A stretch of DNA of 64,000 bases from assembly GCF_900096945.1 (NCBI RefSeq), contig NZ_FMKA01000017.1:1-64000 (forward strand). The letters run 5' to 3'. The position numbers and the translations under genes are program-made. The DNA is from Anaerobium acetethylicum. Lineage in GTDB: Bacteria > Bacillota > Clostridia > Lachnospirales > Lachnospiraceae. Positions 7,555 to 31,237 of the stretch are shown here, in pieces (the first letter of the stretch is position 1; the number at the start of each line of letters is the position of its first letter). Under the pieces are notes generated by a model. The model was not told the DNA's origin and ran no database searches. It was given only the letters and a program-made list of their open reading frames with translations.

Positions 7555-9798
7555 ATGGAGAAATGTGGGCAGGTTCAGAAAAGCGAAAATTCCAAAATGA
7601 ATAATTTTGAAAACCATAAATTAATATCGGACTTTAACATAAAGATCAACAGGGATACTGTCATGCATATTATGGACTGCCGCAAGGACAGCCCCGTCTA
7701 TGAGGAAGTGCTCCAGGAGTATGAGGAATTGGAAAAGGAAATCAGTGCACTGATCGAACCGGCGGCTATCATCAAATTTGGAAGGCTTGAGGCAGAGGTT
7801 AAGCTCGAAGGGCTGGAGAACGGTGCACCGGTGGTGTATGTTCTGGCGACTGCAGGCCTGGATATTTCTGAGCTGAGCAGCAGATATTTTGCAGAAGGCG
7901 ATTACCTGCGGGGAATGCTTGCCGATGCTATGGCAGATGACTATCTGTTCCAGACCGATAGTGAGGTCCAGAAGATAATCAGGGAGGAATGCAGGCTGCG
8001 AAGGCTTGGCATCCGCCAGAGATTTGAAGCGCCCGGGACAATGCCGATGGAGATGCAGAAAGCAATACTGGATGAGACTGAAGCATATGAAAGGCTGAAG
8101 ATAGACATTACGACGGGCTATATGTTCACAGCAGTAAAAACGACAGGCTACCTGCTGGAAGTGACGGAAGATGAGAATGATTTTCATGCAGATCAGAACT
8201 GTGAAGCATGCGAGGCCGTTGGATGCAAGAGAAGAAAAGTAGCAGAGACAGGCGTGAAGGTCACGAGCGGAGACAGCGTATACGAGATAGGATGCAAGGA
8301 AAAGGAAAGCCTGCTTGAGGCGATGGTCAGGAACGGTATATTTGTAAGCGCAGTCTGCGGAGGAAACGGAAAGTGCGGAAAATGCAGTATACAGGTTATA
8401 GAAGGAGAGCTGGAAATCACCGCTGCAGACAGGGAGGTTTTTGGACAAGAGGAGCTGGCCGCCGGCTTCCGGCTGTCATGCAGAGCATATCCGAAAGCCG
8501 GCTGTTCGATCAAGCTGGCTGCCGGAAATGAATCGGATTTTGAGATACTTTCAGATTATCGGAACGAAGATGATGAGAAAAGCAAAGCAGGAGAAGACAG
8601 CTATCTGATCGGGATTGACATTGGGACAACAACGATAGCCATCACTCTTGTGGGAGCGGAATCAAAAAGAACAGTAAAGACATTCACGATAGTTAATAAG
8701 CAGAGGGCATACGGTGCGGATGTGATTTCAAGAATCCAGTCTTCCAATGAAGGGAAGATGGAGGAACTGAGGGACAGCGTCCGGGAAAGCCTGAACCTGG
8801 GAATCCGGGAAATCGTGGAGAGCACGCGGATTGCAAAATCATCCATAAAGAAAATCGCCGTGTCTGGAAATACGACAATGCAGCACCTGCTGCTTGGGTA
8901 TTCCTGCGAGACGCTGGGCGTATTTCCATTTACCCCTGTAGATGTCGGCCTGACGGAGAAACCGTTTCTGGAAATCATGGGAAATGACTACCTGCAGTCG
9001 CCGGTGGTCCTGCTTCCGGGCATATCGACGTTTGTCGGGAGCGATATCGTGAGCGGACTGCTTCTATGCGATTTTGACAGGAAGAAGGAAATCAGCATGC
9101 TGATCGACCTTGGCACAAACTGCGAAATGGCAATCGGAAACAGCGAGAGGATCCTGGTATGCTCAACCGCAGCCGGGCCGGCTTTTGAGGGCGGAAACAT
9201 CCAGAACGGCACCGGAAGTATTCCAGGAGCAATCAGCAGCGTTTCCATTGAAGACGGCAAAGCCATTTATGAAACAATAGCAGGGAAGCAGCCGGTCGGG
9301 ATATGCGGGACCGGGGCAATCGAGACCGTTGCAGAACTGCTGAGGGCGGACCTGATTGATGAAACTGGTCGCCTGGACGAAGCATATTTTGAAGAGGGAT
9401 ATGAACTGGCCAGGAATCCCGAAGGCAGGAGTATAGTATTCACGCAGAAGGATATCAGAGAAATCCAGCTGGCAAAATCTGCGGTGAGGGCAGGAATCGA
9501 GACGCTGGCTGAACGATATGGCACAGAACTGGATGCAATCGCAAGCGTATATATTGCGGGAGGATTCGGATTCAAGGTGGATATCAGTAAGGCGGTCTAT
9601 ATAGGACTGCTGCCTGAAGAATTTTCGGGGAAGATAGAAACGGTCGGAAATAGTTCGCTTGGCGGAGCTGTCAGGTATCTGACAGAGGACGGTGCAGACA
9701 AGAGAGTGGAAAAAATAGTGGAAGCATCCGAAGAGATCAATCTTTCGGGAGATAAGTTTTTTAACGAACGCTATATGGAGTACATGTATTTTGAGTGA
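7555..9798 (+). CDS. reductive activator of corrinoid proteins (RACE, DUF4445/ASKHA) with N-terminal extension
   Basis: This returns accidentally oxidised Co(II) corrinoid to Co(I) using ATP and an electron donor. From about residue 250 a [2Fe-2S] plant-ferredoxin-type domain is visible (CGGNGKCGKC, with a further Cys in LSCRAYP). From about residue 345 follows the ASKHA ATPase-like domain (GIDIGTTTIAITLVG, SGNTTMQHLLLG, DLGTNCEMAIG, CGTGAIETVAELL). Stand-alone RACE proteins are about 600-640 residues. This one is 747, with about 245 extra N-terminal residues that resemble the B12-dependent methionine synthase activation-type fold and end in CEACEAVGCKRRK. GGGAGG lies 8 bases before the ATG. 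It should serve the corrinoid protein encoded upstream. Confidence 0.88.
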   Translation: MEKCGQVQKSENSKMNNFENHKLISDFNIKINRDTVMHIMDCRKDSPVYEEVLQEYEELEKEISALIEPAAIIKFGRLEAEVKLEGLENGAPVVYVLATAGLDISELSSRYFAEGDYLRGMLADAMADDYLFQTDSEVQKIIREECRLRRLGIRQRFEAPGTMPMEMQKAILDETEAYERLKIDITTGYMFTAVKTTGYLLEVTEDENDFHADQNCEACEAVGCKRRKVAETGVKVTSGDSVYEIGCKEKESLLEAMVRNGIFVSAVCGGNGKCGKCSIQVIEGELEITAADREVFGQEELAAGFRLSCRAYPKAGCSIKLAAGNESDFEILSDYRNEDDEKSKAGEDSYLIGIDIGTTTIAITLVGAESKRTVKTFTIVNKQRAYGADVISRIQSSNEGKMEELRDSVRESLNLGIREIVESTRIAKSSIKKIAVSGNTTMQHLLLGYSCETLGVFPFTPVDVGLTEKPFLEIMGNDYLQSPVVLLPGISTFVGSDIVSGLLLCDFDRKKEISMLIDLGTNCEMAIGNSERILVCSTAAGPAFEGGNIQNGTGSIPGAISSVSIEDGKAIYETIAGKQPVGICGTGAIETVAELLRADLIDETGRLDEAYFEEGYELARNPEGRSIVFTQKDIREIQLAKSAVRAGIETLAERYGTELDAIASVYIAGGFGFKVDISKAVYIGLLPEEFSGKIETVGNSSLGGAVRYLTEDGADKRVEKIVEASEEINLSGDKFFNERYMEYMYFE

Positions 9799-15517: not shown

Positions 15518-15913
15518 CTAATTTTCTTCCAGATCCACCGGCTCAAACATATCAAGTGTTTCCAGGGCAGGTAGCAGCTTGCTGACGCCGCAGGTGAAGA
15601 AAATCATACGGATTACTTCAAATATTTCATCCATTGTAGCCCCGTTTTCAAGAGCCAGTTGAGCATGAACTTTCATTGTGGTATCTGTTCCGGTTGCCAT
15701 GCCGATAGCCATAACGATTAATTCACGGTATTTCTTTGGAATAGAAATATCGCTTTTGTTGCAGTTTATATATTGCTGTAAAAAAGCATTTACAAGGTTT
15801 GGATCATTTCCCATTACCCGGTGGGAATCAAGCAGAGAACCACCTCGGGCAATCTTTAAATCTTCAAGAATTTTTTGGGAACGAGCCAGCTTTTCAAAAT
15901 TCATCTGTTTCAT
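15518..15913 (-). CDS. carboxymuconolactone decarboxylase (CMD/AhpD)-family protein
   Basis: A 131-residue all-helical CMD-family protein. The conserved block YRELIVMAIGMATGTDTTMKVHAQLALENGATMDEIFEVIRM is present, followed by FFTCGVSK. Family members act as peroxidase partners, lactone decarboxylases or uncharacterised enzymes. The AhpD CxxC pair is not present, only single cysteines, so peroxidase activity is doubtful. The ORF track start is too long; GGAGG lies before the ATG at 15913 (MKQMNFEKLA). It starts 13 bases after the OadA-like gene and shares its operon and regulator. Confidence 0.8.
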   Translation of the reverse strand: MKQMNFEKLARSQKILEDLKIARGGSLLDSHRVMGNDPNLVNAFLQQYINCNKSDISIPKKYRELIVMAIGMATGTDTTMKVHAQLALENGATMDEIFEVIRMIFFTCGVSKLLPALETLDMFEPVDLEEN

Positions 15914-15926
15914 AAGGACTCCTCCA

Positions 15927-17327
15927 TTAATTAGTTTGATACTTTGTGCGTAAAAAATCCAATGCATAACTCGGAAACATTGCATAAGTCAGAATATCCT
16001 CGTCGGATTTTGCAAGTGCGCCAAGTTCATTTTTTGCAGTTTCAAATCCAGGTTCCAGCATATCGGCAGGTTTGTTCATGTTTGGCTTGTCGCTGCCAAG
16101 TGCTTTTTCTAAAAGTTCCGAAGATATAGGACCTGGGGGCATTCCATACATGCCGCGGCAGTAATCTCTCAGCTCCTTACTCATTAAGGAGTAGCGCTTG
16201 CCGGTTATTACATTGGTTGTAGCCTGAGCACCGCATATCTGGCTTGATGGAGTGGCAAGGGGAGGATATCCCATGTCGGCACGTACCTGGGTGACCTCTT
16301 TCAGGATTTCCGGAAGCCTGTCATACAAGTTCATGGCGGTCAACTGACTTTCTAAACTTGAGAGCATTCCGCCTGGAACTTGATGTTCTAAGCAGTCGAC
16401 ATCGACACCGATCAATTTAGTCTCATACTCTGCATATTTCTTTCGTAAAATTAGAAAATCATCATTGATGGACTTAAAATGTCCAAGCTCGATTCCAGGA
16501 TCACGGCTTGTGCCTTTTAAAGCAGACAGGAAGCTTTCGATTGGAGGATGAGCCGGTCCCATGGACATTGAAGAGACGCACACGTCTATTCCGTCCACTC
16601 CAGCCCGAATTGCCTCCCAGTAAGCCATTTCGGCCATTCCGCCAGTACAGTGGCAGTGGAGATGAACTGGAATCTTCAATTTTGCCTTTAAAGCAGAAAT
16701 CAATTCATATGCAGCCTGTGGTGTCATTAAACCTGCCATATCTTCAACATGCATAAGGGAAGCCCCCAGTTTTTCCTGCTCTAACGCATTCTGAACAAAT
16801 ATATCGGTAGTATGGAAGGGACTGATATTATACTGAACAGAACCTTCGATTTTTTTTCCAGCCTTCTTTACTGCCTTAAAAGCAGATTCACAATTTCTCA
16901 AATCCTGTAATGCATCAAAAATTAAAAATATATCAATACCGGCCTCAGCGGCCTTTTCTACAAATTTTTCTACAATATCGTCTGGATAAGCTTTATAACC
17001 TACTAAATTTTGTGCGCGAAGAACCATCTTTAGCGGGGTCTTCTTGACATATTTCTTGAATTCTCTAATCCTATCCCAGGGATCTTCTTTTAAAAATCTG
17101 ACTGCAACATCAAAAGTTGCACCACCCCACATTTCAATACTATCATATCCGACCTGATCCATGCGGGTCAGAAGCGGAGCCATATCGGCAGTGGTCATAC
17201 GGGTTGCCAGTAAAGACTGCTGTCCGTCACGAAATTCAACACTGTTGAATTTCAAAGGGGTGCCGGCATTTATAAAGTCTGCTGCACCGATTCCATCGGG
17301 ATATTTTGTTCTTTTTGTCCAAAACAA
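15927..17327 (-). CDS. OadA/PycB-like carboxyltransferase-fold enzyme with altered active site
   Basis: A 466-residue protein aligning along its whole length with the carboxyltransferase domain of oxaloacetate decarboxylase alpha and pyruvate carboxylase (WGGATFDVAVRFLKEDPW, LRAQNLVGY, VPGGMLSSLESQL). Metal ligands Asp34 and the HLHCH pair (222-226) are kept. The Lys that is carbamylated and binds metal in the family motif IKDM(A/S)G is Glu195 here (VEDMAG). No biotin-carrier domain is attached and no oadB/oadG is nearby. A biotin carboxyl transfer role is therefore doubtful; a metal-dependent C-C lyase, aldolase or decarboxylase is more likely. The start is TTG after AAAGGA. A near-perfect promoter and an operator shared with the 18.9 and 31.3 kb promoters precede it. 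Confidence 0.78.
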   Translation of the reverse strand: MFWTKRTKYPDGIGAADFINAGTPLKFNSVEFRDGQQSLLATRMTTADMAPLLTRMDQVGYDSIEMWGGATFDVAVRFLKEDPWDRIREFKKYVKKTPLKMVLRAQNLVGYKAYPDDIVEKFVEKAAEAGIDIFLIFDALQDLRNCESAFKAVKKAGKKIEGSVQYNISPFHTTDIFVQNALEQEKLGASLMHVEDMAGLMTPQAAYELISALKAKLKIPVHLHCHCTGGMAEMAYWEAIRAGVDGIDVCVSSMSMGPAHPPIESFLSALKGTSRDPGIELGHFKSINDDFLILRKKYAEYETKLIGVDVDCLEHQVPGGMLSSLESQLTAMNLYDRLPEILKEVTQVRADMGYPPLATPSSQICGAQATTNVITGKRYSLMSKELRDYCRGMYGMPPGPISSELLEKALGSDKPNMNKPADMLEPGFETAKNELGALAKSDEDILTYAMFPSYALDFLRTKYQTN

Positions 17328-17590: not shown

Positions 17591-18604
17591 CTACAGGGTA
17601 AAACTTTCCCGAAGGATTACTTCGGCATCTACCATGTGATGGATGGGACTAATATGATTGCTTTCTAATATTTTTTTTACGGTATCAATAACCAAATGGC
17701 CGATCTTGGCATTTGGCATTTCTATTACACTTAGAGAAGGGATACAAAATGCTGTGGTTTCCGTTTCTAACATTCCAATTGTAAGAATCTCGATATCCTC
17801 TGGAATGCGCAAATGATGTTTATGGAAGGTATGTAAAGCGCCGATTGCCATGGAATCAGAATCAAAAAAGACTGCCTTTGGAGCATTCGAAAGGCTGCAG
17901 ATTTCTTCGGCTGCCTGAGCGCCACCGGTGACAGTACCTGGTCCTTTGATGATATGTTCGGAAGACACATTGATGCCGACCTGGGAACATGCGTATAGAA
18001 AAGCCTGTGTACGAAGGCCAGTTGCTACGTAAGACTGACTCGAAGAGACAACCATTACTTCGGAATACCCTTTTTTACGGAATAGATCAGCTACCTGAAA
18101 TCCGATTTTTTGGTGATCTGTCCGGACTGTGGAGAACTGTTCAGACTCTCGGTTAATCAGAATGATGGGCATATTAGGCTTCAAAGATTCCAGATATGCA
18201 ATGTCACGATTGGAAGCAGCACCGATAATTGCAATGTTATAGCTGTTATTGATGATAGAGGAAGCGTCGCGCTCTAAGAAATCGTTCTCGTATGCCTGGA
18301 CGATGAATTCGCAAAGGAAATTCTGTGTCTTTATTTCCTTCTGCAGCGCATTCAAAAAGGAGGCAAGGATTGAATTACGGTCGTCAAGCGGCCAGAAAAA
18401 TGCAATTGTCGGCTTTGATGCATCCTGGGAGCGGAGCCTCCTGGCGCTGAGGTTTGGCTGATAAGATAAGTCTTTCATAACGGCAAATACCCGTTCCTGA
18501 GTCTGGGCAGAAATCCCTCTTTCTTTGGACTTGCCGCTGATAATAATTGAGACTGTAGTGGGAGAAACCCCTGCTAGTTTTGCTACATCCTTAATGGTTG
18601 CCAT
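17591..18604 (-). CDS. LacI-family repressor of the 2-hydroxy acid regulon
   Basis: A 337-residue regulator. The LacI helix-turn-helix is at residues 1-25 (MATIKDVAKLAGVSPTTVS), the hinge region around 45-60, and a periplasmic-binding-like sensor domain follows (PTIAFFWPLDDRN, then GAASNRD, then VFFDSDSMAIGALHTF). It lies between the two promoters it probably controls, that of the OadA-like operon on the left and of the PFOR operon on the right. Each promoter carries the AACGTTATACTAA operator just after the -10. Its own start is preceded by A/T-rich DNA with no copy of the operator. The effector is probably the imported hydroxy acid or a CoA/phosphate intermediate (inference). Confidence 0.9.
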   Translation of the reverse strand: MATIKDVAKLAGVSPTTVSIIISGKSKERGISAQTQERVFAVMKDLSYQPNLSARRLRSQDASKPTIAFFWPLDDRNSILASFLNALQKEIKTQNFLCEFIVQAYENDFLERDASSIINNSYNIAIIGAASNRDIAYLESLKPNMPIILINRESEQFSTVRTDHQKIGFQVADLFRKKGYSEVMVVSSSQSYVATGLRTQAFLYACSQVGINVSSEHIIKGPGTVTGGAQAAEEICSLSNAPKAVFFDSDSMAIGALHTFHKHHLRIPEDIEILTIGMLETETTAFCIPSLSVIEMPNAKIGHLVIDTVKKILESNHISPIHHMVDAEVILRESFTL

Positions 18605-18863: not shown

Positions 18864-18938
18864 TTGACAATGGAATAAAAATAAATTATGGTTATACACA
18901 TGAACGTTATACTAACACGTTAAACTAACACGTTAAAC
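18864..18938 (+). promoter_or_regulatory. promoter and operator O2 of the PFOR operon
   Basis: TTGACA (18864) and TATGGT (18887) are spaced by 17 bases. From 18903 follow AACGTTATACTAACACGTT and a second overlapping copy of ACTAACACGTTAA, giving a duplicated half-site. The operator covers the expected transcription start. The rest of the 353-base gap 18605-18957 is A/T-rich with no other feature seen. Confidence 0.85.
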
Positions 18939-18957: not shown

Positions 18958-21900
18958 ATGAGCAAATTTGATGATCTTAACTGGGAAGAAGGAGCATCAA
19001 TCGAAGGAAGGATGAAAAGCAAAATGAGCAAAATGATAAAGAGGGCAATGGATGGCAACGAAGCGGCAGCTTATGCTTCTTATGCATTTACGGAGGTAGC
19101 TGCCATTTATCCAATTACACCATCTTCACCGATGGCCGAGCTGGTAGATAAATGGTCGGCAAATGGGATGAAAAATATTTTTGGACAGCAGGTAAAATTA
19201 GTCGAAATGCAGTCGGAATGTGGAGCGGTCTCTGCGGTACATGGTGCTTTGGATGGAGGCGTACTTGCAACGTCCTATACGGCATCACAGGGTCTGATGC
19301 TGATGATTCCGACTATGTACCGTATTGCAGGACAGTTAAAGCCGGGCGTTATCCATGTGGCATCCAGAAATGTGGCAACACATGCAATCTCGATATCTGC
19401 TGAGCATTCTGATGTTATGGCGTGCCGTCAGACAGGTTATGCATTAATGGCATCCTCAAGTGTGCAGGAAGCAATGGATTTAGGTGCAGTTTCCCATCTG
19501 GCAGCAATAAAAGGGCATGTGCCATTTTTACATTTCTTTGATGGATTCAGGACTTCCCATGAAGTGCAGAAGGTGGATTGTCTCGATTATGATGATCTGG
19601 CGAAAATGGTAGACCAGAATGAATTAAAAAAATTCAGGGAGAATGCATTGAATCCGGAACATCCGGTACTTCGTACTACGGGTCAGTATTCTGATACGTA
19701 TTTCCAGAGCCGCGAGGCATGTAATTCCTATTATGATGCATTGCCGGATATCGTGGCAGAGTATATGGATCAGATTAATGAAGTGACCGGACGCAGCTAT
19801 AAGCCGTTCAACTATTACGGTGCGGCGGATGCAGAGTATGTAATAGTCGGAATGGGTTCATCAACGGGCTGTGTACAGGAAAGCATTGACTATTTATTAG
19901 AAAAAGGCGAAAAAGTAGGATACATGGAAGTTCATCTGTATCGTCCATTCTCTGCAAAATATTTCTTAAGCCAGTTACCGGATACAGTCAAAAAAATGAC
20001 TGTGGCGGACAGAACGAAAGAACCAGGTGCAGTTGGCGAACCTCTGTATGAAGATGTATGCTCTGTTATTCTGGAATCCGAAAGAGCGATTGATGTACTT
20101 GCCTGCAGATACGGTCTTGCAAGCAAAGAGTTTACACCGGCCCTGGTTATTGCCATGTACGAAAACATGAAGCAGGACACACCAAAGAATCACTATACAA
20201 TCGGTATCAATGATGACGTGACCGGATTATCCCTTCCTTATGGGAAAGAAGTAGATACAGTTCCTGAGGGAACCATAAGCTGCAAGTTCTGGGGACTTGG
20301 ATCGGATGGTACAGTTGGTGCAAATAAAAATACCATCAAGATTATCGGTGACCACACGGATATGAACGTTCAGGCATACTTTGAATATGATGGGAAAAAA
20401 TCAGGCGGTGTTACCCGTTCTCATCTGCGATTTGGCAAAAAGCCGATCCGCTCCACTTATCTGGTAAACCGGGCAGACTTTATCGCTTGCCATAATAAAT
20501 CTTATCTGGAGCGATATGATATTCTGGCTGATGCCAAAGAAGGCGCCAATGTCCTAATTACCTGCGACTGGAAAGAGGAAGAGCTTGAAAAACACCTGAC
20601 GGCGGAATTCAGGAAAGCGGCAGCTGAAAAGAAAATCCATCTTCATATTATCGATTCGACTGCAATCGCAAAAGAATTAGGCTTAGGAAGCAGAACAAAC
20701 ACGATCCTGCAGGCTGCATTCTTTAAAATCACAAATATCATTCCAATTGAAGAAGCAGCAGATTACATGAAGAAAGCAATTTATAAGTCATACGGCAAAA
20801 AAGGCGAAAAAATCGTCAATATGAATTATGCAGCAGTTGATAAGGGTATTGAGATGGTAAGAGAAGTAACTGTTCCTGCTGAATGGGCGGATTTGAAACT
20901 CGAGCCAGTTTCTATAGATGAATCATTGCCAAAGTGGATCAAGAATATACAGATTCCAGTAAATGCAATGAAAGGCGATTCCATCCCCGTAAGTGCATTC
21001 ATGGATCTTCCGGATGGCACGATGCCGCAGGGGACCTCAAAATATGAGAAACGCGGCATTGCTGACAACGTTCCAGTATGGGATAGCAGCAAATGCATTC
21101 AATGTAACCAGTGTGCTTACGTGTGCCCACATGCAGCAATTCGTCCTTTCTTATTAGATAAAGAAGAGGCATCAAAAGCTCCGGCTGAATTCGTGACGGT
21201 ACAGGCTGCCGGAAAAGGCATGGAAACATATCAGTACAGAATACAGACAGCAGTGCTTGACTGTACAGGATGTGGAAGCTGCGCAAAGGTATGTCCTTCA
21301 AAAGATAAAGCTCTTACCATGAAACCGTTGGATGAGAACAGGCATGAAGAAGCAAACTGGGAATATGCAGCAGCATTATCGAAAAAGGAAAATCCGATGA
21401 GTGTTTCTACTGTAAAAGGCAGCCAGTTTGAACAGCCCCTGCTGGAATTCCCGGGAGCATGCCCAGGATGTGGCGAGACACCGTATGCAAAACTCCTGAC
21501 CCAATTATACGGAGACCGTATGTATGTGGCAACAGCAACCGGATGCTCCCAGGTATGGGCAACAAGCTTCCCGTCATTCCCATATACAACAAACGAAAAT
21601 GGTAAAGGTCCTGCAGTAGGCGGTTCTCTATTCGAAAACAATGCAGAGTATGGTATGGGCATCTGGCTTTCAGTAGAGCAGCAGAGAGAAAAATTATTAG
21701 GAAAGGCAGAGGCTCTTGTAAAAATAACCACCAACGAAGAGTTAAAGAAAGCAGCATCAGCATGGATGGAAAGCTACAATGATGGAGCTGTGACGAAGGA
21801 AGCAAGCGAAGCCTTCAAAGCAGTTTTACTGAATTATGAGCCGGCAGAAGAAGATGCTCCAGTCATGGTATTCACCGATGGTACGCAGGAGGAACGCAGA

Positions 21901-22620
21901 TGCTGCGAGTCAGTGGCGGTAGAAGAAGCTTCACTCATAGCAGAAATCAGGGAAAATGCAGAGTATCTGACCAAGAAATCCGTATGGCTGTTTGGCGGAG
22001 ACGGCTGGGCCTACGATATCGGATATGGCGGACTTGATCATGTTTTAGCAAGCGGTGCAAACGTGAATGTCATGGTATTCGATACGGAAATTTATTCCAA
22101 TACAGGCGGTCAGGCTTCAAAATCAACTCCTACAGGGGCAGTTGCACAGTTCGCGGCGGCAGGCAAAAGAAGCAAGAAAAAAGACCTTGGAATGATGGCT
22201 ATGAGTTATGGCGATGTTTATGTAGCCCAGGTTGCGATGGGAGCCAGCCAGTCACAGTTCTTAAAAGCGGTACAGGAGGCAGAAAGCTATGACGGGCCAT
22301 CTCTGATCATCGCATATGCACCATGCATCAGCCATGGCTTACGCTGTGGAATGGAAGATGTACAGGGAGAAATAAAACGTGCAGTCGAAGTAGGATACTG
22401 GCAGATGTACAGGCATAATCCAATGCTTGCTGAAGAAGGAAAAAATCCATTTATTCTTGATTCCAAAGAACCAACGGGAGATTTTCAGGAATTTCTTCGC
22501 GGTGAAGTCCGTTTTTCTTCTCTTGAGAGAACATTCCCTGATGTTGCTGAAACATTATTTAAGCAGACGGAAAAAGAGGCGAAAGCCAGATATGCAAAAT
22601 ATAAAGCGCTAGCACAATAA
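18958..22620 (+). CDS. nifJ: pyruvate (2-oxoacid):ferredoxin oxidoreductase, single-chain NifJ type
   Basis: Oxidatively decarboxylates a 2-oxoacid to acyl-CoA and CO2 and reduces ferredoxin. The domain order is standard: N-terminal PFOR domain (AIYPITPSSPMAE), middle domains, two [4Fe-4S] motifs (CIQCNQCAYVCP and CTGCGSCAKVCP near residues 710 and 765), and the TPP domain with CPGCGE (near 837) and GGDGWAYDIGYGGLDHV. At 1220 residues it is slightly long. An extra 22 N-terminal residues precede the usual start, and the ATG at 19024 (after GAAGGAAGG) is a reasonable alternative start. Being first in an operon with Ptb, Buk and an IPMDH-like enzyme suggests that its substrate here may be 2-oxobutyrate or a branched 2-oxoacid as well as pyruvate. 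Confidence 0.92.
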   Translation: MSKFDDLNWEEGASIEGRMKSKMSKMIKRAMDGNEAAAYASYAFTEVAAIYPITPSSPMAELVDKWSANGMKNIFGQQVKLVEMQSECGAVSAVHGALDGGVLATSYTASQGLMLMIPTMYRIAGQLKPGVIHVASRNVATHAISISAEHSDVMACRQTGYALMASSSVQEAMDLGAVSHLAAIKGHVPFLHFFDGFRTSHEVQKVDCLDYDDLAKMVDQNELKKFRENALNPEHPVLRTTGQYSDTYFQSREACNSYYDALPDIVAEYMDQINEVTGRSYKPFNYYGAADAEYVIVGMGSSTGCVQESIDYLLEKGEKVGYMEVHLYRPFSAKYFLSQLPDTVKKMTVADRTKEPGAVGEPLYEDVCSVILESERAIDVLACRYGLASKEFTPALVIAMYENMKQDTPKNHYTIGINDDVTGLSLPYGKEVDTVPEGTISCKFWGLGSDGTVGANKNTIKIIGDHTDMNVQAYFEYDGKKSGGVTRSHLRFGKKPIRSTYLVNRADFIACHNKSYLERYDILADAKEGANVLITCDWKEEELEKHLTAEFRKAAAEKKIHLHIIDSTAIAKELGLGSRTNTILQAAFFKITNIIPIEEAADYMKKAIYKSYGKKGEKIVNMNYAAVDKGIEMVREVTVPAEWADLKLEPVSIDESLPKWIKNIQIPVNAMKGDSIPVSAFMDLPDGTMPQGTSKYEKRGIADNVPVWDSSKCIQCNQCAYVCPHAAIRPFLLDKEEASKAPAEFVTVQAAGKGMETYQYRIQTAVLDCTGCGSCAKVCPSKDKALTMKPLDENRHEEANWEYAAALSKKENPMSVSTVKGSQFEQPLLEFPGACPGCGETPYAKLLTQLYGDRMYVATATGCSQVWATSFPSFPYTTNENGKGPAVGGSLFENNAEYGMGIWLSVEQQREKLLGKAEALVKITTNEELKKAASAWMESYNDGAVTKEASEAFKAVLLNYEPAEEDAPVMVFTDGTQEERRCCESVAVEEASLIAEIRENAEYLTKKSVWLFGGDGWAYDIGYGGLDHVLASGANVNVMVFDTEIYSNTGGQASKSTPTGAVAQFAAAGKRSKKKDLGMMAMSYGDVYVAQVAMGASQSQFLKAVQEAESYDGPSLIIAYAPCISHGLRCGMEDVQGEIKRAVEVGYWQMYRHNPMLAEEGKNPFILDSKEPTGDFQEFLRGEVRFSSLERTFPDVAETLFKQTEKEAKARYAKYKALAQ

Positions 22621-22630
22621 GGAGAAGAAT

Positions 22631-23752
22631 ATGAGCACATTTATTGAAAGGATTTTGGGGAAAGAAGCAGGTTCCGTTGCTACGATTATGGCAGATTATG
22701 TGGTAATCAATGATGGTATTTCAAATGCTGCAGTGGATGAGATATCTGCTGTGGGAAATCAGGAGAAAGTATGGGTCATCCATGATCATGATGTACCGAC
22801 CGGAAGTACCGAGGCAGCTGGTATTTTAAGAAAGAATCTGGAATTTGCAACAAGGAATGGCTGTCATTATGTGCAGGCACAGGGAGTGGGATACCAGTAC
22901 ATGCTGAATGACATCATCAAGCCGGGAGAAATCATAATTGGCGGTGGAACCCATGGTAGTATCTTTGGTGCGAAAAAAGCATTGGGAATCAATGTAAGCA
23001 TTCCGGAACTAGCCCGCATCGCAGAGACAGGACGCTACAGTGTGATCGTGCCAGAGACTGTATCGGTTACTTTAACAGGAAATCTGCAGGAATCTGTCAG
23101 TGTGATGGATGCTGCAATGGATTTCCTTACAAAAGCCTCAGACGTAAAAGGAAAAGTAATTGAATTCGGCTGCCCGTCACTTGATGATCATCAGAAAGCA
23201 GTTCTCTGCAGCATGGCTTGTATGACAGGAGCTTACGCAGCAGTGATTGTTGAAGAACAATCTGAACAGGCAGTCGTCCTTGATCTGACAAACGTAAAGC
23301 CTATGATCATGATGCCCTGTGCCAGCCGTTCAGAACAGGACCAGGCAAAAATCGCTGAAAAATCGGTACTGGAAGGAACTGAACTTCAGGCTGGGCAGAT
23401 TGGAGGCTATACCGGAGGCACCATAGAAGAGTTGAGAACGGCAGCCGGGCTTATCAAAGATAAAAAGCTTGCCCGAGGATTCCGGTTAAGCATTTGTCCT
23501 GCAACCAGCAAAGACTACATACAGGCAATGGAAGAAGGAATTATCACAAAGTTTATTGATTATGGCGCACAGATTCAGGCACCGGGGGATCACAGCGTTG
23601 TAACGCAGGGAGCAGGAGCGATGGGCCATAATGAGAAACTTTTAACAACTGGTCTTTATACGTTTGCGGGCGCAATGGGTTGTGAAGATGCTGAAGTATA
23701 TACAGCTTCCGTTAATTCTGTAATTGCGGCGTCATATACAAAACTAATTTAA
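22631..23752 (+). CDS. aconitase/LeuC-family protein lacking the Fe-S cluster cysteines
   Basis: A 373-residue relative of the isopropylmalate dehydratase large subunit. The segment GFRLSICPATSKDYIQAMEEGIITKF lines up with GLRFIVCPATNKVFKDAIEAGYIRTF of the next gene. The cluster ligands are gone: the GSCTNG motif is IGGYTGG here, and the CGLCCG motif is replaced by HSVVTQGAGAMG. The DSHTTT motif became GGTHGSI. HDHDVPT is kept from the substrate-binding DH-x-x-P. It cannot be a normal [4Fe-4S] hydro-lyase. It could be a cluster-free isomerase or a partner subunit of the LeuD-LeuC fusion encoded 12 bases downstream. AGGAG precedes the ATG, and it follows PFOR by 10 bases. Confidence 0.75.
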   Translation: MSTFIERILGKEAGSVATIMADYVVINDGISNAAVDEISAVGNQEKVWVIHDHDVPTGSTEAAGILRKNLEFATRNGCHYVQAQGVGYQYMLNDIIKPGEIIIGGGTHGSIFGAKKALGINVSIPELARIAETGRYSVIVPETVSVTLTGNLQESVSVMDAAMDFLTKASDVKGKVIEFGCPSLDDHQKAVLCSMACMTGAYAAVIVEEQSEQAVVLDLTNVKPMIMMPCASRSEQDQAKIAEKSVLEGTELQAGQIGGYTGGTIEELRTAAGLIKDKKLARGFRLSICPATSKDYIQAMEEGIITKFIDYGAQIQAPGDHSVVTQGAGAMGHNEKLLTTGLYTFAGAMGCEDAEVYTASVNSVIAASYTKLI

Positions 23753-23764
23753 GGAGGCGCTGAC

Positions 23765-25567
23765 ATGGATAAGAAATTCAGTGGTAAAATATGGAAGTTT
23801 GGAAATGACATTGATACGGATACTATAATACCAGGCAGACGCGGGACGATCCCGACGATTGAAGAGATGAAGCAATATGCTTTTGAATTATTGAAGCCGG
23901 AATTCGGTTCAACGGTTCAGGCAGGAGATATCCTTGTTGCAGGTACTAATTTTGGCTGTGGATCCAGCCGTGAGCAGGCGGCAACTGTGCTTTCGGCAAA
24001 TGGAGTACGCTGTATTATTGCAAAGAGTTTTGCAAGGATTTTTTTCCGCAACGCATTTAATAGTGGAATTCTTCTGCTCCAGTGTGATGGCATACAGGAC
24101 GTCTGCGACGGCGGAGATATCGTCACTGTTGATATTGATGCAAAAACAGTCAGTGTAAATGGAAAGACATTTCCAGTCGGCGAGGTTCCTGAAAACCTGT
24201 TTAATATAGTAGCAAACGGCGGTCTGATTGAAGACACCAAAAAGCGAATAGCGGAAGGAATCAAGAAATTAGAAATCACGCCGCTGACTGATAAAGAACG
24301 CCGTAAGAGCGGATATACCCTTGTGGAGAAAATACTGAAGAACAATGCAGGAAAGCATCATGTTGAACCAGGAGATATCGTGATTACAAAACCAGACATG
24401 TTTATGGTCCATGACATCTATACCACGTATCTTTTAGATACCATGAAGAAGATCGGAGCAGATAAAATCGATGATCCGGATAAAGTGACGATCGTATGGG
24501 ATCACTGCATGCCGACTGCCGTAGCAAAGAATGACTACGATCATTATCATGCCGGCTTGGAGCTTGCAAAGCTATACGGTATCAAGAAACTGCATATCGG
24601 TGAAGGCATCTGTCACAGTATCATGCATGAAAAGAAATATGCAAGACCGGGAGAAGTTGCAACAGCAACTGACAGCCATACGACAACTTACGGCGGAGCG
24701 GGAAATTTCTGCTCAGGAATTGGCACGGCAGAGATGGCCGCTGCTCTGATTACCGGAGAACTTTGGTTTAAAGTTCCGAGTGCCATTAAAATCGTGCTAA
24801 ACGGACATCTGAAGGAAGGCGTTTTATCAAAAGATATTATCCTGAAGATTCTGGGCGATATAAAGGCAGATGGAGGACAATATAAATCTCTTGAATTCAC
24901 AGGAACTGCAGCACATGAAATGAGCATGATGGCACGTTTCACAATGGCAAATATGGCTTTAGAAGCGGGCGCAAAATGCGGATTGTTTGAAGCAGATGAA
25001 AAGACAGCCGAATATTATGGAATGTCTCTTTCTGAAATTGACTGGGTCCGTATGGATGACGATGCAAAATATGAAAAAGTACTGACCTACAATGTCGATG
25101 AATTAGAACCACAGTTATCATGTCCTCAGGGCGTCGACAATGTTCATCCGATCCATGAAATTCTTGGGACCAAGATTGATGAAGTATACTTAGGCAGCTG
25201 TACAAATGGAAGTTTAGAGGATCTGGCAATTGCAGCAAAAATGATGGAAGGTAAAAAAGTGGCATATGGCCTCCGTTTCATTGTGTGTCCTGCAACGAAT
25301 AAGGTGTTTAAGGATGCAATTGAGGCTGGCTATATCAGGACCTTCATAGAAGCTGGTGGAGTAGTCGTCCATCCGTGCTGCGGACTTTGCTGCGGCATGC
25401 CATACGGCTTAATGACAGATGATGAAAGGATCCTGTCTACGGCAAACCGAAACTTCATTGGACGCCAGGGCACAAAGAAGACCCTCAGCTACCTTTCAAG
25501 TCCTGCAGTGGCAGCTGCAACAGCAATCGCAGGGGTCGTCACAGACCCACGAACCATGATAAACTAA
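23765..25567 (+). CDS. LeuD-LeuC fusion hydro-lyase (3-isopropylmalate dehydratase-like)
   Basis: A 600-residue fusion in small-then-large order. Residues 1-165 are the LeuD swivel domain (NDIDTDTIIPGR, GTNFGCGSSREQA). Residues 190-600 are the LeuC catalytic part, with DHCMPT, ATDSHTTTYGGAGNF and the three cluster cysteines in GSCTNG (Cys479) and CCGLCCG (Cys539, Cys542). It should isomerise a 2-hydroxy acid through an unsaturated intermediate, as in isopropylmalate, citramalate/methylmalate, maleate or dimethylmaleate chemistry. Mitochondrial-type aconitase has the opposite order, though AcnB also places the swivel domain first. It is co-operonic with an IPMDH-like dehydrogenase. A biosynthetic leucine role is unlikely because no leuA is present and the neighbours are fermentative. 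Confidence 0.88.
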   Translation: MDKKFSGKIWKFGNDIDTDTIIPGRRGTIPTIEEMKQYAFELLKPEFGSTVQAGDILVAGTNFGCGSSREQAATVLSANGVRCIIAKSFARIFFRNAFNSGILLLQCDGIQDVCDGGDIVTVDIDAKTVSVNGKTFPVGEVPENLFNIVANGGLIEDTKKRIAEGIKKLEITPLTDKERRKSGYTLVEKILKNNAGKHHVEPGDIVITKPDMFMVHDIYTTYLLDTMKKIGADKIDDPDKVTIVWDHCMPTAVAKNDYDHYHAGLELAKLYGIKKLHIGEGICHSIMHEKKYARPGEVATATDSHTTTYGGAGNFCSGIGTAEMAAALITGELWFKVPSAIKIVLNGHLKEGVLSKDIILKILGDIKADGGQYKSLEFTGTAAHEMSMMARFTMANMALEAGAKCGLFEADEKTAEYYGMSLSEIDWVRMDDDAKYEKVLTYNVDELEPQLSCPQGVDNVHPIHEILGTKIDEVYLGSCTNGSLEDLAIAAKMMEGKKVAYGLRFIVCPATNKVFKDAIEAGYIRTFIEAGGVVVHPCCGLCCGMPYGLMTDDERILSTANRNFIGRQGTKKTLSYLSSPAVAAATAIAGVVTDPRTMIN

Positions 25568-25582: not shown

Positions 25583-26479
25583 ATGATAAAAAGTTTTGAT
25601 GAGTTAAAAGAGACCCTCAGAAAGATGCCTGAAAAACGTAAAGTAGCGGTAGCGCCTGCACAGGATGCACATACCCTGGAGGCAATCGTGAATGCTGCAA
25701 GAGACGGCATGGTAACTCCGGTCCTGATTGGCAGAGAACCAGAGATCAGAGCGATCCTGGAAGAGTTAGGAGCTTCTCAGGAAGAGATGCAGATTATCCA
25801 TATCGAAGATAAAACTGCATGTGTGCAGAAAGCAGCTGATATGGTGAAATCCGGAGAAGTAGATTGCATTATGAAGGGGAAGATTGAAACAGGAGACCTG
25901 ATGAAGGTATTGGTCAATAAAGAGACCGGTATCCGCAAGAACAGCACCATGAGCCTGCTGGCCTTTATGGAAAGCCCCAATTACCATAAGGTATTTGCAA
26001 TAACAGATGTAGGTCTTCTGGTATATCCGACTAAGGAGCAGAAGAGGGCAGCAATAGAGAACGCTGTTTCCGCATTTCATGCGCTGGGAGTGGAAGAGCC
26101 CAAAGTAGCCATTGTTGCAGCTATAGAAAAAATGAATCCGAAAATGAAAGAAACGGTAGACGCAGCCGAAATCAAGGCGGAAGGCGTGGAGGGCTGCATC
26201 ATCGAAGGTCCGATCAGCTATGACCTCGCAATGGATCCGGAATCAGCACCCCTCAAAGGGTACGAAAGCCCTGTAGCAGGCGATGCGGACATACTGGTAA
26301 TGCCGGATATCATAAGCGGAAACGTAGCAGCAAAAACAATCACCACCATCGGCGGGGGACGTACCGGCGGAGTTGTGCTCGGAGCGCAGGTACCTGTCTT
26401 GCTGGTATCACGTTCAGCAAGTGCAGATGATAAATATATGTCAATCGTGCTGGCAGCACTAATAGGCAAAAACAATTAG
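25583..26479 (+). CDS. ptb: phosphate acyl (butyryl)transferase
   Basis: A 298-residue enzyme converting acyl-CoA and phosphate to acyl phosphate and CoA. Family segments are visible: IMKGKIETGDLMKVLVNKETGIR, FAITDVGLLVYPT, EGPISYDLAMDPESA and TIGGGRTGGVVLGAQVPVLLVSRSA. The length and sequence match Ptb rather than Pta. Ptb enzymes accept C3-C5 straight and branched acyl-CoA. It pairs with the butyrate-kinase gene 1.4 kb downstream in the same operon, together yielding ATP from the acyl-CoA made by PFOR. Nothing odd is seen in the active-site regions. Confidence 0.9.
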   Translation: MIKSFDELKETLRKMPEKRKVAVAPAQDAHTLEAIVNAARDGMVTPVLIGREPEIRAILEELGASQEEMQIIHIEDKTACVQKAADMVKSGEVDCIMKGKIETGDLMKVLVNKETGIRKNSTMSLLAFMESPNYHKVFAITDVGLLVYPTKEQKRAAIENAVSAFHALGVEEPKVAIVAAIEKMNPKMKETVDAAEIKAEGVEGCIIEGPISYDLAMDPESAPLKGYESPVAGDADILVMPDIISGNVAAKTITTIGGGRTGGVVLGAQVPVLLVSRSASADDKYMSIVLAALIGKNN

Positions 26480-26493
26480 GAGGAATTACGAGA

Positions 26494-27828
26494 ATGAGTA
26501 AAAAAATCAATTTCAATGTATGCGGATTATCTTTCAAAATTTTCATTCCATTTTTTATAGTAGTTATGATCACAACCTATATGGGATTCATGCCCACGGT
26601 AAAAATCTTCTCAAATGAAGCCGGGGAATATATAGCATCCAATTATATCGGTACCATTGCGTTTTTGATGGCAGTGGGAGGTCTGTTTTTCTGGCTTGGC
26701 AATACGATTCCTATTTTCAATAATTATTTAGGCGGAGCATGTCTGTTGCCATTATTAGGAACATCATTTATGAATTTCATGGGCTGGATTCCGGAGGAAC
26801 TGGTGAATGGTACTGCTGTCTTAATGGGTGGCGGTTTCCAGGATGCCTATATTGCAATGCTGCTAGTAGGATCTATTCTGATCATGGACAGAAAGCTTCT
26901 TCTGGGAGCGACTGCCAGATATATGCCTGTCATTATTGGCAGCCAGGTCTTTGCACTGGGTGCGTGTGCATTGGGTGGATTGATTACTGGAACAAGCGTA
27001 TTTGAAGCTTTATTTTATGTTGGTGCACCTATTATGTCCGGGGGTTCAGGCGGTGCTATGGTTACCCTTCCATCTTTATACAGCGACATTACAGGTACAG
27101 ATATGACTGGCATGGCAGGACAATTCCTTTCCTATGCATCCATATCAAACGTGATAGCGGTTATGATGGCAGCCATTTTCGGAGGCATTACTTCTAAAAT
27201 GAAAGGCGTAAACGGAAACGGTGATATCCTGGTATCTAAGACTGAAAAGGTTATTGAAGAAGGCGAAAAACGTCCGGCAACATCAGGCGACTATGCAGCA
27301 CTTGGTTCGGGAATATTTATGAGCTTCTGTTTTTATCTGGGTGGAAATATTTTAGGCAATCTGCCTGGGTTAAGCGTAATCCCGGGATTGGCCTGGACCA
27401 TTATTCTTGGCATCATCGTAAAGAGCACGGGACTTATGCCTGACAAGATTGCAGATAATACTGTATACTCCATGAATTTTGCTTTAAGAGCGCTTCTTCC
27501 TATGCTGATTGCAGGCATTGGCATCAAATCTTTGAATTTCTCTGCAATAGGAGCCTTCTTTACGGTTGGAGCATTTGTGATTATTTTTCTGGGAGTGTTT
27601 GGAGCATTTCTCGGAGCAGCGGTTTTTGCTAAGTTATTCGGCCTGTGGCCATATGAAGCGGGTGTTACTGCAGGCTTATGCTGCTGTAATATCGGCGGAA
27701 GCGGCGATATTGCAGTACTTTCGGCAGCTAACCGTATGAACCTGTTGGCGTTTGCTTCTATTTCAACACGAATCGGTGGAGCACTGATGGTCATCTGGAT
27801 CGGATTGTTATATCCATTGTTTATGTAA
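26494..27828 (+). CDS. 2-hydroxycarboxylate transporter (2HCT/CitS family)
   Basis: A 444-residue inner-membrane carrier with 11 or so predicted helices. The two family reentrant-loop signatures are visible as MSGGSGGAMVTLPS near residue 188 and CCNIGGSGDIAVLSAANRMNL near residue 395. The family (CitS, MaeN, CimH, CitP, MleP) carries citrate, malate, lactate or citramalate-like 2-hydroxy acids with Na+ or H+, or in exchange for a product. This gene gives the best clue that the operon substrate is a 2-hydroxy di- or tricarboxylate. AGGAGG precedes the ATG. A hairpin follows before the kinase gene. Confidence 0.88.
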   Translation: MSKKINFNVCGLSFKIFIPFFIVVMITTYMGFMPTVKIFSNEAGEYIASNYIGTIAFLMAVGGLFFWLGNTIPIFNNYLGGACLLPLLGTSFMNFMGWIPEELVNGTAVLMGGGFQDAYIAMLLVGSILIMDRKLLLGATARYMPVIIGSQVFALGACALGGLITGTSVFEALFYVGAPIMSGGSGGAMVTLPSLYSDITGTDMTGMAGQFLSYASISNVIAVMMAAIFGGITSKMKGVNGNGDILVSKTEKVIEEGEKRPATSGDYAALGSGIFMSFCFYLGGNILGNLPGLSVIPGLAWTIILGIIVKSTGLMPDKIADNTVYSMNFALRALLPMLIAGIGIKSLNFSAIGAFFTVGAFVIIFLGVFGAFLGAAVFAKLFGLWPYEAGVTAGLCCCNIGGSGDIAVLSAANRMNLLAFASISTRIGGALMVIWIGLLYPLFM

Positions 27829-27909: not shown

Positions 27910-29016
27910 ATGAATTCATATAAAGTATTTACAATCAATCCTGGCTCTACTTCAACAAAAATCGCAATGTTTGAAGGAGATAAGACGGTTTTTTCAAAGA
28001 ATGTGTCCCATGACGCAGAGCGGTTAAAAGAGTTCAAAGAAATCAGCGACCAGTTTGATTATAGAAAAGAAACAATTCTGGAAGAACTGAAAAAAGAAAA
28101 TCTGACTTTAGATGGCGTAGATGCTTTTTCGGCACGCGGCGGCGGACTTGTAAACATCGAAGGTGGTGTTTATCAGATCGGTGAAAAATTGCTGGAGCAT
28201 GCAAGAGCCGGTTTTACGGTAAAACATCCAGCCACCTTAGGGGCACAGCTGGCAGATGCATTTGCAAAAGAATATGGCGGACAGTCGTTTGTCGTAAACC
28301 CACCGGATGTAGATGAGTTCATTGATGTTGCAAGAGTGACAGGGCTAAAGGGAGTATATCGTGAAAGCAGGATACATGCCCTGAACCAGAAAGAAATCGG
28401 GATCCGCTATGGACTAAAGGCTGGCAAAAAATATGAAGACTTAAATCTGATCATCTGCCATATCGGCGGCGGAATCTCGGTTACTGCACACCGTCAGGGA
28501 AAGATGATAGATTCCAATGATATTGCGAATGGCGATGGACCTATGGCGCCGACACGATGCGGACAGCTTCCGGTAAAGGATGTAATTACCATGTGCTTTT
28601 CCGGAAAATTCACAGAGAGGGAACTGCGTGACAAAGTGACAAAAACAGGCGGCTTTGTTGATCATTTAAATACGTCGGATGCCAGGGAAGTTGAGGCAGC
28701 GATGAATAATGGAGATCCTTATGCAAAACTGGTATACGATGCAATGGTTTATCAGATTGGAAAAACAGCAGGTTCCATGGCGGCAGCGCTTCGCGGAAAG
28801 GTAGATGCGATTATCCTGACAGGGGGCATTTCTCATGATAAATATGTAACAGGAAAGCTGAGAGATATGCTTGCTTTTATTGCTCCGATGGAAGTCATGC
28901 CTGGAGAATTTGAGATGGAGGCACTGGCTGCCGGGGCGGTACGTGTTTTATCAGGTGCAGAAGAAGCAAAAAATTATACCGGTGAACCAGTATGGTCTGG
29001 TTTTTCGATAGAATAA
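27910..29016 (+). CDS. buk: butyrate kinase
   Basis: A 368-residue acetokinase-family (ASKHA) enzyme making acid and ATP from acyl phosphate and ADP. The motifs are FTINPGSTSTKIAMFEG at the N-terminus, NPPDVDEFIDVARVTGL (the Buk-type substrate loop), CHIGGGISVTAHRQGKMIDSNDIANGDGPMAPTR and ILTGGISHDKY. The sequence is Buk-like rather than AckA-like, supporting C3-C5 acids as product. AAAGGGAGG lies upstream. It gives the substrate-level ATP step of the operon. Confidence 0.92.
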   Translation: MNSYKVFTINPGSTSTKIAMFEGDKTVFSKNVSHDAERLKEFKEISDQFDYRKETILEELKKENLTLDGVDAFSARGGGLVNIEGGVYQIGEKLLEHARAGFTVKHPATLGAQLADAFAKEYGGQSFVVNPPDVDEFIDVARVTGLKGVYRESRIHALNQKEIGIRYGLKAGKKYEDLNLIICHIGGGISVTAHRQGKMIDSNDIANGDGPMAPTRCGQLPVKDVITMCFSGKFTERELRDKVTKTGGFVDHLNTSDAREVEAAMNNGDPYAKLVYDAMVYQIGKTAGSMAAALRGKVDAIILTGGISHDKYVTGKLRDMLAFIAPMEVMPGEFEMEALAAGAVRVLSGAEEAKNYTGEPVWSGFSIE

Positions 29017-29786: not shown

Positions 29787-30158
29787 ATGGATCTATATGT
29801 GACAAAAATGTCGAGATCAATCATGCCTGCTATGACAAACAGAAATAGTACCTTATTCGGCGGGAAATTATTGAGCTGGATGGATGAAATAGCAGGGATT
29901 ACTGCCGCAAGGTACGCAAACTCCAAGGTTGCTACAGTAGCAATTGAAACTGTGCTGTTTATGAAACCTATCTGCGGGGGGGATTTTATTGATGTTGAAG
30001 GCAGGATACTATCTGTCGGAAAGACATCGCTGCGTGTGATGATAGAAGTAAGCGTGGATAAAGGCAATGGCAGGCGGGAAAATGCAGCCGAAGCCGTATT
30101 TGTCTATGTTGCATTAGATGAAAGTGGAAAACCGAAGAAAGTAGTGGAGGAAATATGA
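29787..30158 (+). CDS. hotdog-fold acyl-CoA thioesterase (YciA-like)
   Basis: A 123-residue hotdog protein. The family block NSTLFGGKLLSWMDEIAGITAARYA, with the N-x-x-G-x-x-x-G...D arrangement, is clear, followed by VFMKPI-like and VEGRILSVGKTSLRV strands. It hydrolyses acyl-CoA. Inside a Ptb/Buk operon it may be a safety valve that frees CoA when kinase flux is limiting. AGGAGGG precedes the ATG at 29787, 12 codons inside the ORF-track start. The stop overlaps the ATG of the dehydrogenase gene (ATGA), indicating translational coupling. Confidence 0.85.
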   Translation: MDLYVTKMSRSIMPAMTNRNSTLFGGKLLSWMDEIAGITAARYANSKVATVAIETVLFMKPICGGDFIDVEGRILSVGKTSLRVMIEVSVDKGNGRRENAAEAVFVYVALDESGKPKKVVEEI

Positions 30159-31237
30159 TTTTAAATATAGCTGTCATCAAAGGAGATGGTGTCGGTCCGG
30201 AAATGATGGAATCGGCACTTGAGATCCTTAAATCAGTATGCAGGCAATTTGAACATCAGTTGAATCTATATCCGGTGATGGCTTCCGGAGAAGCGATTGA
30301 TGCCGTTGGGAATCCGATGCCGGAGGAGTCATTGAAAATATGTATGGAGGCGTCAGCAGTGCTGTTGGGCAATACAGGACTTTCGAAATATCGGAATTCG
30401 CCACAGGAGAAGCGTCCTGAATTTGCACTTATGCGCTTAAGAAAAGAAATGGAAACAACAACGAATATCCGGCCGGTGTGCATTTATCCTGTTTTATCGG
30501 AACTATCGCCTTTGAAAGAACGTATCGTTCAGCAAGGTGTGGATTTTGTGTTTGTCAGAGACATTGCTGGCGGCGTATTCTGCTCGGATAAGGTGAAATC
30601 AGAAGGCGAATTTGGCAAAGAAGCTTATGAATATGAATACTATAATGAAAAAATCATTACGGATACGGCAGCCATCGCATTTGAACTTGCAGGCAGAAGA
30701 AAGAATAAAGTGACCAATCTGGATAAATCAAATGTGTTGGGGAGTTCCAAGCTATGGAGAACCACTGTGCAAGAGGTGGGAAAGCACTATCCGGAAATTG
30801 AGCTGACTCACTGCTATATCGATACGGCAGCCATGAAAATCATAGAAAGTCCAAAAGAGTTTGATGTTATAGTGACCTCCAATCTGTTTGGAGATATCAT
30901 AGCAGATGAAGGAACCCAGATAACAGGGACACCGTACCTGTATGCCTCGGCAGAAGTTGCGAAAAATGGAAAAGGAATTTATACGCCCAATCAGCTTCAC
31001 CATCCGGATGAAACCATGATCGGGCAGCAAATCGTGAATCCTATCGGCATGATAGCAGCTGCGGCAATGATGCTCCGCCATAGCTTTGGGTTGGAGAAAG
31101 AGGCAGCTGCCATAGAAAATGCCATCAGAAAAGCCATTGAGCAGGGCTATCGGACAAAGGATATTGCAAAAGAAGGGGAGCAGTGGCTTTCTACAAAGCA
31201 GATGGGAGAGAAAATCACAGGTCTTCTGGCTTATTAG
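30155..31237 (+). CDS. isopropylmalate/D-malate dehydrogenase-like oxidative decarboxylase
   Basis: A 360-residue beta-hydroxyacid oxidative decarboxylase. The family elements are VIKGDGVGPEMM, GEAIDAVGNPMPEESL, the substrate helix ALMRLRKEME, NIRP, KSNVLGSSKLWR, and the metal Asp segment SNLFGDIIADEG, which in LeuB usually reads NMFGDILSDE. NAD+-dependent oxidation plus decarboxylation of a 3-alkylmalate, D-malate or tartrate-type acid gives a 2-oxoacid for PFOR. The departures from LeuB and the catabolic operon argue for a substrate other than isopropylmalate. It overlaps the thioesterase gene by 4 bases and is the last gene of the operon. Confidence 0.85.
   Translation: MILNIAVIKGDGVGPEMMESALEILKSVCRQFEHQLNLYPVMASGEAIDAVGNPMPEESLKICMEASAVLLGNTGLSKYRNSPQEKRPEFALMRLRKEMETTTNIRPVCIYPVLSELSPLKERIVQQGVDFVFVRDIAGGVFCSDKVKSEGEFGKEAYEYEYYNEKIITDTAAIAFELAGRRKNKVTNLDKSNVLGSSKLWRTTVQEVGKHYPEIELTHCYIDTAAMKIIESPKEFDVIVTSNLFGDIIADEGTQITGTPYLYASAEVAKNGKGIYTPNQLHHPDETMIGQQIVNPIGMIAAAAMMLRHSFGLEKEAAAIENAIRKAIEQGYRTKDIAKEGEQWLSTKQMGEKITGLLAY

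Follow-up and report, generated by a model that had tools for sequence, protein, structure and literature searches.

An apparently undescribed, cluster-free LeuC-type protein in a putative 2-hydroxy acid fermentation operon of Anaerobium acetethylicum

Each catalytically active protein of the aconitase superfamily that PMC8184944 lists needs an Fe-S cluster. What, then, is the role of an aconitase-type protein that carries none of the cluster ligands and is encoded directly in front of a paralogue with a complete set? The question is raised by a gene of Anaerobium acetethylicum, here termed X, which lies in a 64,000-nucleotide stretch of contig NZ_FMKA01000017.1 (positions 1 to 64,000, forward strand; the whole stretch is referred to as the window). 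A first-pass annotation had proposed that X was retained for a new role, either as a cluster-free isomerase or as a partner subunit without catalytic function. We find that X represents a branch of the aconitase superfamily that is real, conserved, free of the cluster and apparently undescribed, and the fermentation operon that holds it is probably undescribed as well; a literature search found no description of the X protein or its operon.

The locus and its putative pathway

In the window, genes for a CMD-like protein, an OadA-like protein and a LacI-family regulator on the minus strand are followed on the plus strand by PFOR, X, LeuD-LeuC, Ptb, a 2HCT carrier, Buk, YczE-like, YciA-like and LeuB-like genes. 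The main features are:

15518..15985, minus strand: carboxymuconolactone decarboxylase-like protein (CMD-like), conserved in the cluster (relatives' loci)
15927..17327, minus strand: oxaloacetate decarboxylase alpha-like protein (OadA-like) without the biotin domain, conserved in the cluster (profiles, relatives' loci)
17407 (before OadA) and 31312 (before a MATE gene): single ACGTTAWAC copies (pattern search)
17591..18604, minus strand: LacI-family regulator of the locus (profile, relatives' loci)
18904..18938, plus strand: three tandem ACGTTAWAC operator-like repeats with a 13-bp period, upstream of PFOR-X-LeuDC (pattern search)
18958..22620, plus strand: 2-oxoacid oxidoreductase of the pyruvate:ferredoxin oxidoreductase type (PFOR; TIGR02176, 1775 bits)
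22631..23752, plus strand: X, cluster-free homologue of the aconitase/LeuC large subunit, 373 aa, domains 1-3 only (ORF, profiles, alignment, fold)
23765..25567, plus strand: LeuDC, a fusion of LeuD and LeuC in which every cluster and catalytic motif is present, presumed to be a functional isomerase, 12 bp past X (profiles, alignment)
25583..26479, plus strand: phosphate butyryltransferase-like protein (Ptb; profile matches)
26494..27828, plus strand: 2-hydroxycarboxylate transporter (2HCT/CitS family; profile matches)
27910..29016, plus strand: butyrate kinase-like protein (Buk; TIGR02707 above cut-off)
30155..31237, plus strand: LeuB-like dehydrogenase whose active-site Tyr and cofactor loop are altered (profile, sequence comparison)

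As judged from these gene families, the operon probably ferments a 2-hydroxy or 2-alkylmalate-type acid. A 2-hydroxy acid would be taken up by the 2HCT carrier, isomerised by LeuDC and oxidised by the LeuB-like enzyme, whereupon PFOR would turn the resulting 2-oxoacid into acyl-CoA and the Ptb/Buk pair would harvest ATP by substrate-level phosphorylation. Candidate substrates considered were malate, citrate, citramalate and 2-isopropylmalate. Among proteins with a solved structure, isopropylmalate (IPM)/citramalate isomerase is the closest to LeuDC, and no charged specificity residue is seen in the LeuB-like enzyme when it is read against the corresponding IPMDH and HICDH residues, which together would favour a 2-alkylmalate. 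Biosynthetic-type LeuC/LeuD and LeuB genes are present elsewhere in the genome, and the operon copies are therefore dedicated paralogues.

Related loci, referred to as L038, L039, L040 and L072, add detail to this picture. In the LeuB-like dehydrogenases of the window (30155-31237), L039 (L039:16447-17547) and L072 (L072:9582-10679), the catalytic IPM-dehydrogenase Tyr is missing, GGIYF having changed to GGVF, GGVL or GGMF, and the HGSAPDIAG cofactor loop has given way to a sequence that begins YTPNQLH, so that the operon holds a second leucine-pathway paralogue with a rebuilt active site. In the LeuD part of the fusion (window 23765-25567), the specificity segment, usually YLxx, is RGTI in all three copies, suggesting that its substrate may be unusual. 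The OadA-like protein (15927-17327) is conserved with the cluster at 82-83% and has no linked biotin carrier.

The locus is conserved in L039 and rearranged in L072, where the order is PFOR, LeuB-like, X, LeuDC, Ptb, Buk, YczE, 2HCT and acetate kinase. Despite this shuffling, the gap between X and LeuDC is 12-14 bp in all three intact loci that show the junction (window, L039, L072). In L040, LeuDC directly follows X and is broken by an apparent frameshift, and the L038 contig stops after X. All three genomes found with a LeuDC at least 80% identical also contain X. In L038, two PF00756 esterases and an SSF symporter (L038:4600-8098) replace PFOR between LacI and X, which hints at an ester as the possible source of the substrate.

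The ACGTTAWAC pattern was observed four times, against 0.03 matches expected, and in L038 the same repeat lies directly upstream of X (at 8302-8354, with X at 8469). Since operator-like repeats precede both PFOR-X-LeuDC and the L038 copy of X, X is part of the regulon and under its control. The OadA-like/CMD pair and the MATE exporter also seem to belong to the small LacI regulon that these predicted repeats define. Cluster-free aconitases can themselves bind RNA (PMC4150767, AcnB), and X might thus be an RNA-binding regulator like the apo-aconitases IRP1 and AcnB; however, X has neither domain 4 nor a HEAT domain and its locus is already under a LacI protein, and we consider this the least probable of the readings discussed here.

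Fold and active site of X

The X gene was described as intact, and its reading frame is indeed unbroken over exactly 22631-23752 (plus strand, 373 aa), with an AGGAG ribosome site before the ATG and a codon usage resembling that of the neighbouring PFOR gene. Pfam PF00330 (Aconitase) matches X with E=2.4e-23 (83 bits, cut-off 28.7), and TIGR02086 matches it over its full length with E=1.3e-50, at 172 bits and far under the curated cut-off of 410, while TIGR01343 gives 158 bits (cut-off 386). Every NCBIfam cut-off for LeuC/HacA large-subunit models lies above the score of X, which places it outside the subfamily as so defined, and PF04412, searched for AcnX membership, gave no match at E<=1. 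Sequence matches in the PDB are 4kp2 and 4nqy. Structure prediction of X alone, which the first-pass annotation had proposed as a check, yielded an aconitase fold: an AlphaFold model based on a seven-row alignment reached pLDDT 77 and pTM 0.76, the pLDDT having risen from 58 with four sequences alone once LeuDC was added. A scan of viral contigs for LeuC, meant to deepen this alignment, returned none. In Foldseek, the model matches MJ1003 and MJ0499 of M. jannaschii with TM 0.83-0.84 (TMq 0.83/0.84 to 4kp2/4kp1), and over IPMI, HACN, AcnB and mitochondrial aconitase TMq is 0.76-0.84. X is unambiguously a member of the aconitase superfamily and has its three-domain fold; a chance similarity to aconitases is ruled out by the profile and fold matches.

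For the active site, X was aligned to 29 Cys-bearing relatives (LeuDC and 28 others), in which the three cluster Cys are invariant. Residues are given in mitochondrial aconitase numbering, placed on X by the standard motifs and by PMC8184944. All three cluster cysteines are replaced in X (C358 by Y260, C421 by D320 and C424 by V323), bearing out the original claim that no Fe-S ligand is left. Further replacements are H147 by Y88, D165 by G106, S166 by T107, N258 by S194, E262 by M198, N446 by L342, R447 by Y343 and R452 by A348. Besides the three Cys, 8 of the 11 other mapped active-site residues are thus lost, 11 of 14 in all, among them the carboxylate-binding pair R447/R452; only D100-H101 and H167 are kept. 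The segments concerned, all placed by alignment, are:

22784..22789, plus strand: codons of D52-H53, equivalent to aconitase D100-H101 and retained in all five X proteins
22952..22954, plus strand: codon of H108, equivalent to H167 and retained, within GTHG (formerly DSHT)
23402..23419, plus strand: G258-G263 (GGYTGG), formerly the GSCTNG loop, with Y260 at the C358 position
23588..23599, plus strand: D320-H-S-V323, formerly the C421-x-x-C424 site
23654..23680, plus strand: L342-Y343 to M349-G350 (LYTFAGAMG), formerly the NRNFxGRxG loop, with N446, R447 and R452 replaced

The changes of GSCTNG to a GGYTGG-type sequence and of DSHT to GTHG had been read correctly by eye, whereas the AGAMG taken as the counterpart of CGLCCG lies about 8 residues beyond the true one, GDHSV. 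The three cluster Cys of LeuC/HacA hydro-lyases are therefore missing and their other catalytic or substrate residues are reduced to 3 of 11 in the window protein; dehydration at a cluster in its classical form is excluded for X.

X is not free of Cys: C193, C197, C230 and C289 are invariant across the five X proteins, which makes it conceivable that a displaced metal centre, either an Fe-S cluster or a metal ion, is held by these residues or by H53, H108, D320 and H321. C193 and C197 lie on the helix that bears N258/E262 in aconitase, the aconitase equivalent of C193 is C257, listed as one of the ligands of a linear cluster form of the mitochondrial enzyme (PMC8184944), and the L072 copy keeps a Cys at the C358 position. 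However, the window copy has no Cys at 358, 421, 424 or the H147 position used by AcnX, the known ligand positions of the superfamily have not gained a Cys by displacement, and many ordinary LeuC relatives likewise have Cys at the C193 position, as LeuDC does at that of C289, so that these two are not new ligands. We consider a displaced centre improbable.

Relatives, selection and ancestry

Three X orthologues (L038, L039 and L040, 63-65% identical) were found when 85,462 species genomes were searched with a profile built from two sequences; because both peptide patterns of this search are close-range, more distant members may be missed. A fifth X (L072, 51% identical) comes from a genome in the same genus as L039. 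All four are from metagenome-type assemblies, and the Synergistaceae label of L040 probably reflects binning. Further relatives were sought: wide genome samples yielded only two genomes besides the window's own, viral contigs yielded none, and plasmids gave only distant matches, the ten best listed being 24-27% identical and either annotated as ordinary isomerases or aconitase-family proteins or unannotated. Lachnospiraceae hits with 30-33% identity were rejected as members, as the top ones inspected, most of them encoded in D-C-D-C tandems, are ordinary LeuC-type proteins that all keep the Cys.

The C421/C424 pair is missing in all five X proteins, and L038, L039 and L040 also lack all three Cys; L072, the most divergent, has the Cys at the C358 position (GGCNGG) without the other two. 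D52, H53, H108, D320, H321 and Y343 are invariant, whereas pocket positions 88, 106, 194, 198, 260 and 348 differ in L072, where the H147 equivalent is L. Within 4 residues of the old active-site positions, 41 of 79 residues are invariant, compared with 135 of 373 overall (p=0.001, five X, phylogeny ignored), and six of the eight sites that are fixed in both X and LeuC yet different lie near the old active site (p=0.0015, few sequences). Codon differences between orthologues fall mostly at third bases, with dN ~0.18-0.30 and dS saturated or nearly so.

Could X be a decaying duplicate kept by linkage? Identity among copies is 51-65% for X and 81-85% for LeuDC; X also evolves faster than PFOR and Buk and is, except for LeuB, the fastest-evolving metabolic gene of the operon. 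Relatives show no decay of the gene; instead, five intact frames under purifying selection share replacement residues, with a good ribosome site, PFOR-like codon usage and, in L038, LacI operators of X's own. Decay is therefore very unlikely, and X as a pseudogene is ruled out by its five intact, selected orthologues. Because relatives share the changes, D320, H321 and Y343 are invariant and invariance is enriched at the old site, the pattern, as read from these alignments, is one of selection for a rebuilt site rather than of decay.

Many Lachnospiraceae carry a tandem LeuD-LeuC-LeuD-LeuC unit (D1-C1-D2-C2; L059-L067), with GSCNNG in C1 and GSCTNG in C2; these tandems have no LeuB or PFOR relative nearby. 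A maximum-likelihood tree has a branch (100/96) that sets X together with C1 apart from the rest; LeuDC clusters with C2. Alternatives that join X to LeuDC and C2 (p-AU 0.034) or to LeuC (0.015) are disfavoured, and a union with LeuDC alone is not rejected (p-AU 0.15). The pair probably arose from such a tandem by loss of D1, fusion of D2 with C2 and loss of the cluster in C1, an ancestry that is a lead, since the X branch is very long.

This origin from a unit with two large subunits fits a model in which X is a non-catalytic partner, or pseudo-subunit, of LeuDC, in a mixed complex derived from D1-C1-D2-C2 where it would stabilise, regulate or load LeuDC. The strict adjacency to LeuDC although neighbours move, the loss of most mapped active-site residues, the lack of an own domain 4 and an evolution faster than that of the operon's enzymes all agree with it. 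On the other hand, invariance peaks around the former active site, where a pure scaffold usually drifts, and the retained Asp-His pair with the new invariant Asp-His resembles chemistry or ligand binding. We regard a partner role as quite possible and a close second choice.

Possible function of X and known systems

The proposed retention for a new role is supported by the conserved new residues, the lack of decay and the lack of Cys at known ligand positions, and neither isomerase nor partner subunit is singled out. Our first choice, a tentative one, is that X is a LeuC-type large subunit which has been neofunctionalised and works as a cluster-free acid-base enzyme (tautomerase or isomerase). 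X would act on an intermediate adjoining the LeuDC step, a 2-oxo or unsaturated dicarboxylate, by simple proton transfer in place of Lewis-acid dehydration at a cluster, relying on the retained D52-H53 and H108 as well as the newly gained D320-H321, perhaps with one metal ion at the centre, and without a small-subunit partner gene of its own; the operon contains no free LeuD, and the one domain 4 that it encodes belongs to the LeuD-LeuC fusion of the gene after X. That X is functional is argued by five intact orthologues from separate genomes under purifying selection, the adjacency to LeuDC, the L038 operators and the presence of X in all three LeuDC genomes. Enrichment of invariance around the old active site, and retention of D100-H101 and H167 while the ligands, R447/R452, D165 and E262 were lost, speak for an enzyme. 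So does the oxaloacetate keto-enol tautomerase activity of bovine aconitase, which PMC10825186 reports as assigned to inactive aconitase by Belikova 1989. This side activity has its optimum at pH 9 and is >95% lower at pH 7 (PMC10825186); the alkaline optimum, together with a pocket in X unlike that of aconitase, counts against an enzyme, as do the pocket positions changed in L072 and the fact that the listed operon forms a complete pathway even without X. The faster evolution of X than of LeuDC, PFOR and Buk is compatible with a scaffold and an enzyme alike.

It is possible, though we advance this with more reserve, that X founds a family of cluster-free aconitase-superfamily enzymes in which the Lewis-acid iron-sulfur site was remodelled to a conserved Asp/His/Tyr pocket for proton transfer on a pathway intermediate, serving an undescribed 2-hydroxy or 2-alkylmalate fermentation built from leucine-pathway paralogues and PFOR-Ptb-Buk. 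A conserved, co-regulated member without a cluster would show the aconitase fold put to cofactor-free or partner use. The operon resembles a route, so far unrecognised, by which herbivore and gut Lachnospiraceae gain ATP from 2-hydroxy acids; X and the altered LeuB-like enzyme make this putative route directly testable.

Among known systems, X shares its whole-chain fold and domain order 1-2-3 with the large subunits of isopropylmalate/citramalate isomerase and homoaconitase (LeuC/HacA; MJ0499, MJ1003), and keeps their D100-H101, H167 and glycine/proline framework; unlike them, it is ~45 residues shorter and has lost the cluster ligands, D165, H147, E262, N258, R447 and R452, and it has no LeuD of its own. 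AcnX types I and II are, like X, superfamily members with an altered cluster site, but AcnX still binds [2Fe-2S] or [3Fe-4S] through Cys at the H147, C421 and C358/C424 positions (PMC8184944). None of these Cys is found in the window X (Y88, D320), which is ~14% identical to AcnX and far closer to LeuC; membership of AcnX is ruled out by the absence of Cys at the H147 and C421 equivalents. IRP1/IRP2 and apo-AcnB combine an aconitase fold with a function that needs no cluster, as proposed for X. They keep the cluster Cys and domain 4, both of which X lacks. The bovine tautomerase, a side activity at alkaline pH rather than a dedicated protein, applies to X by analogy only, and with that proviso inactive aconitase (Belikova 1989) provides a model for proton transfer by X without an active cluster.
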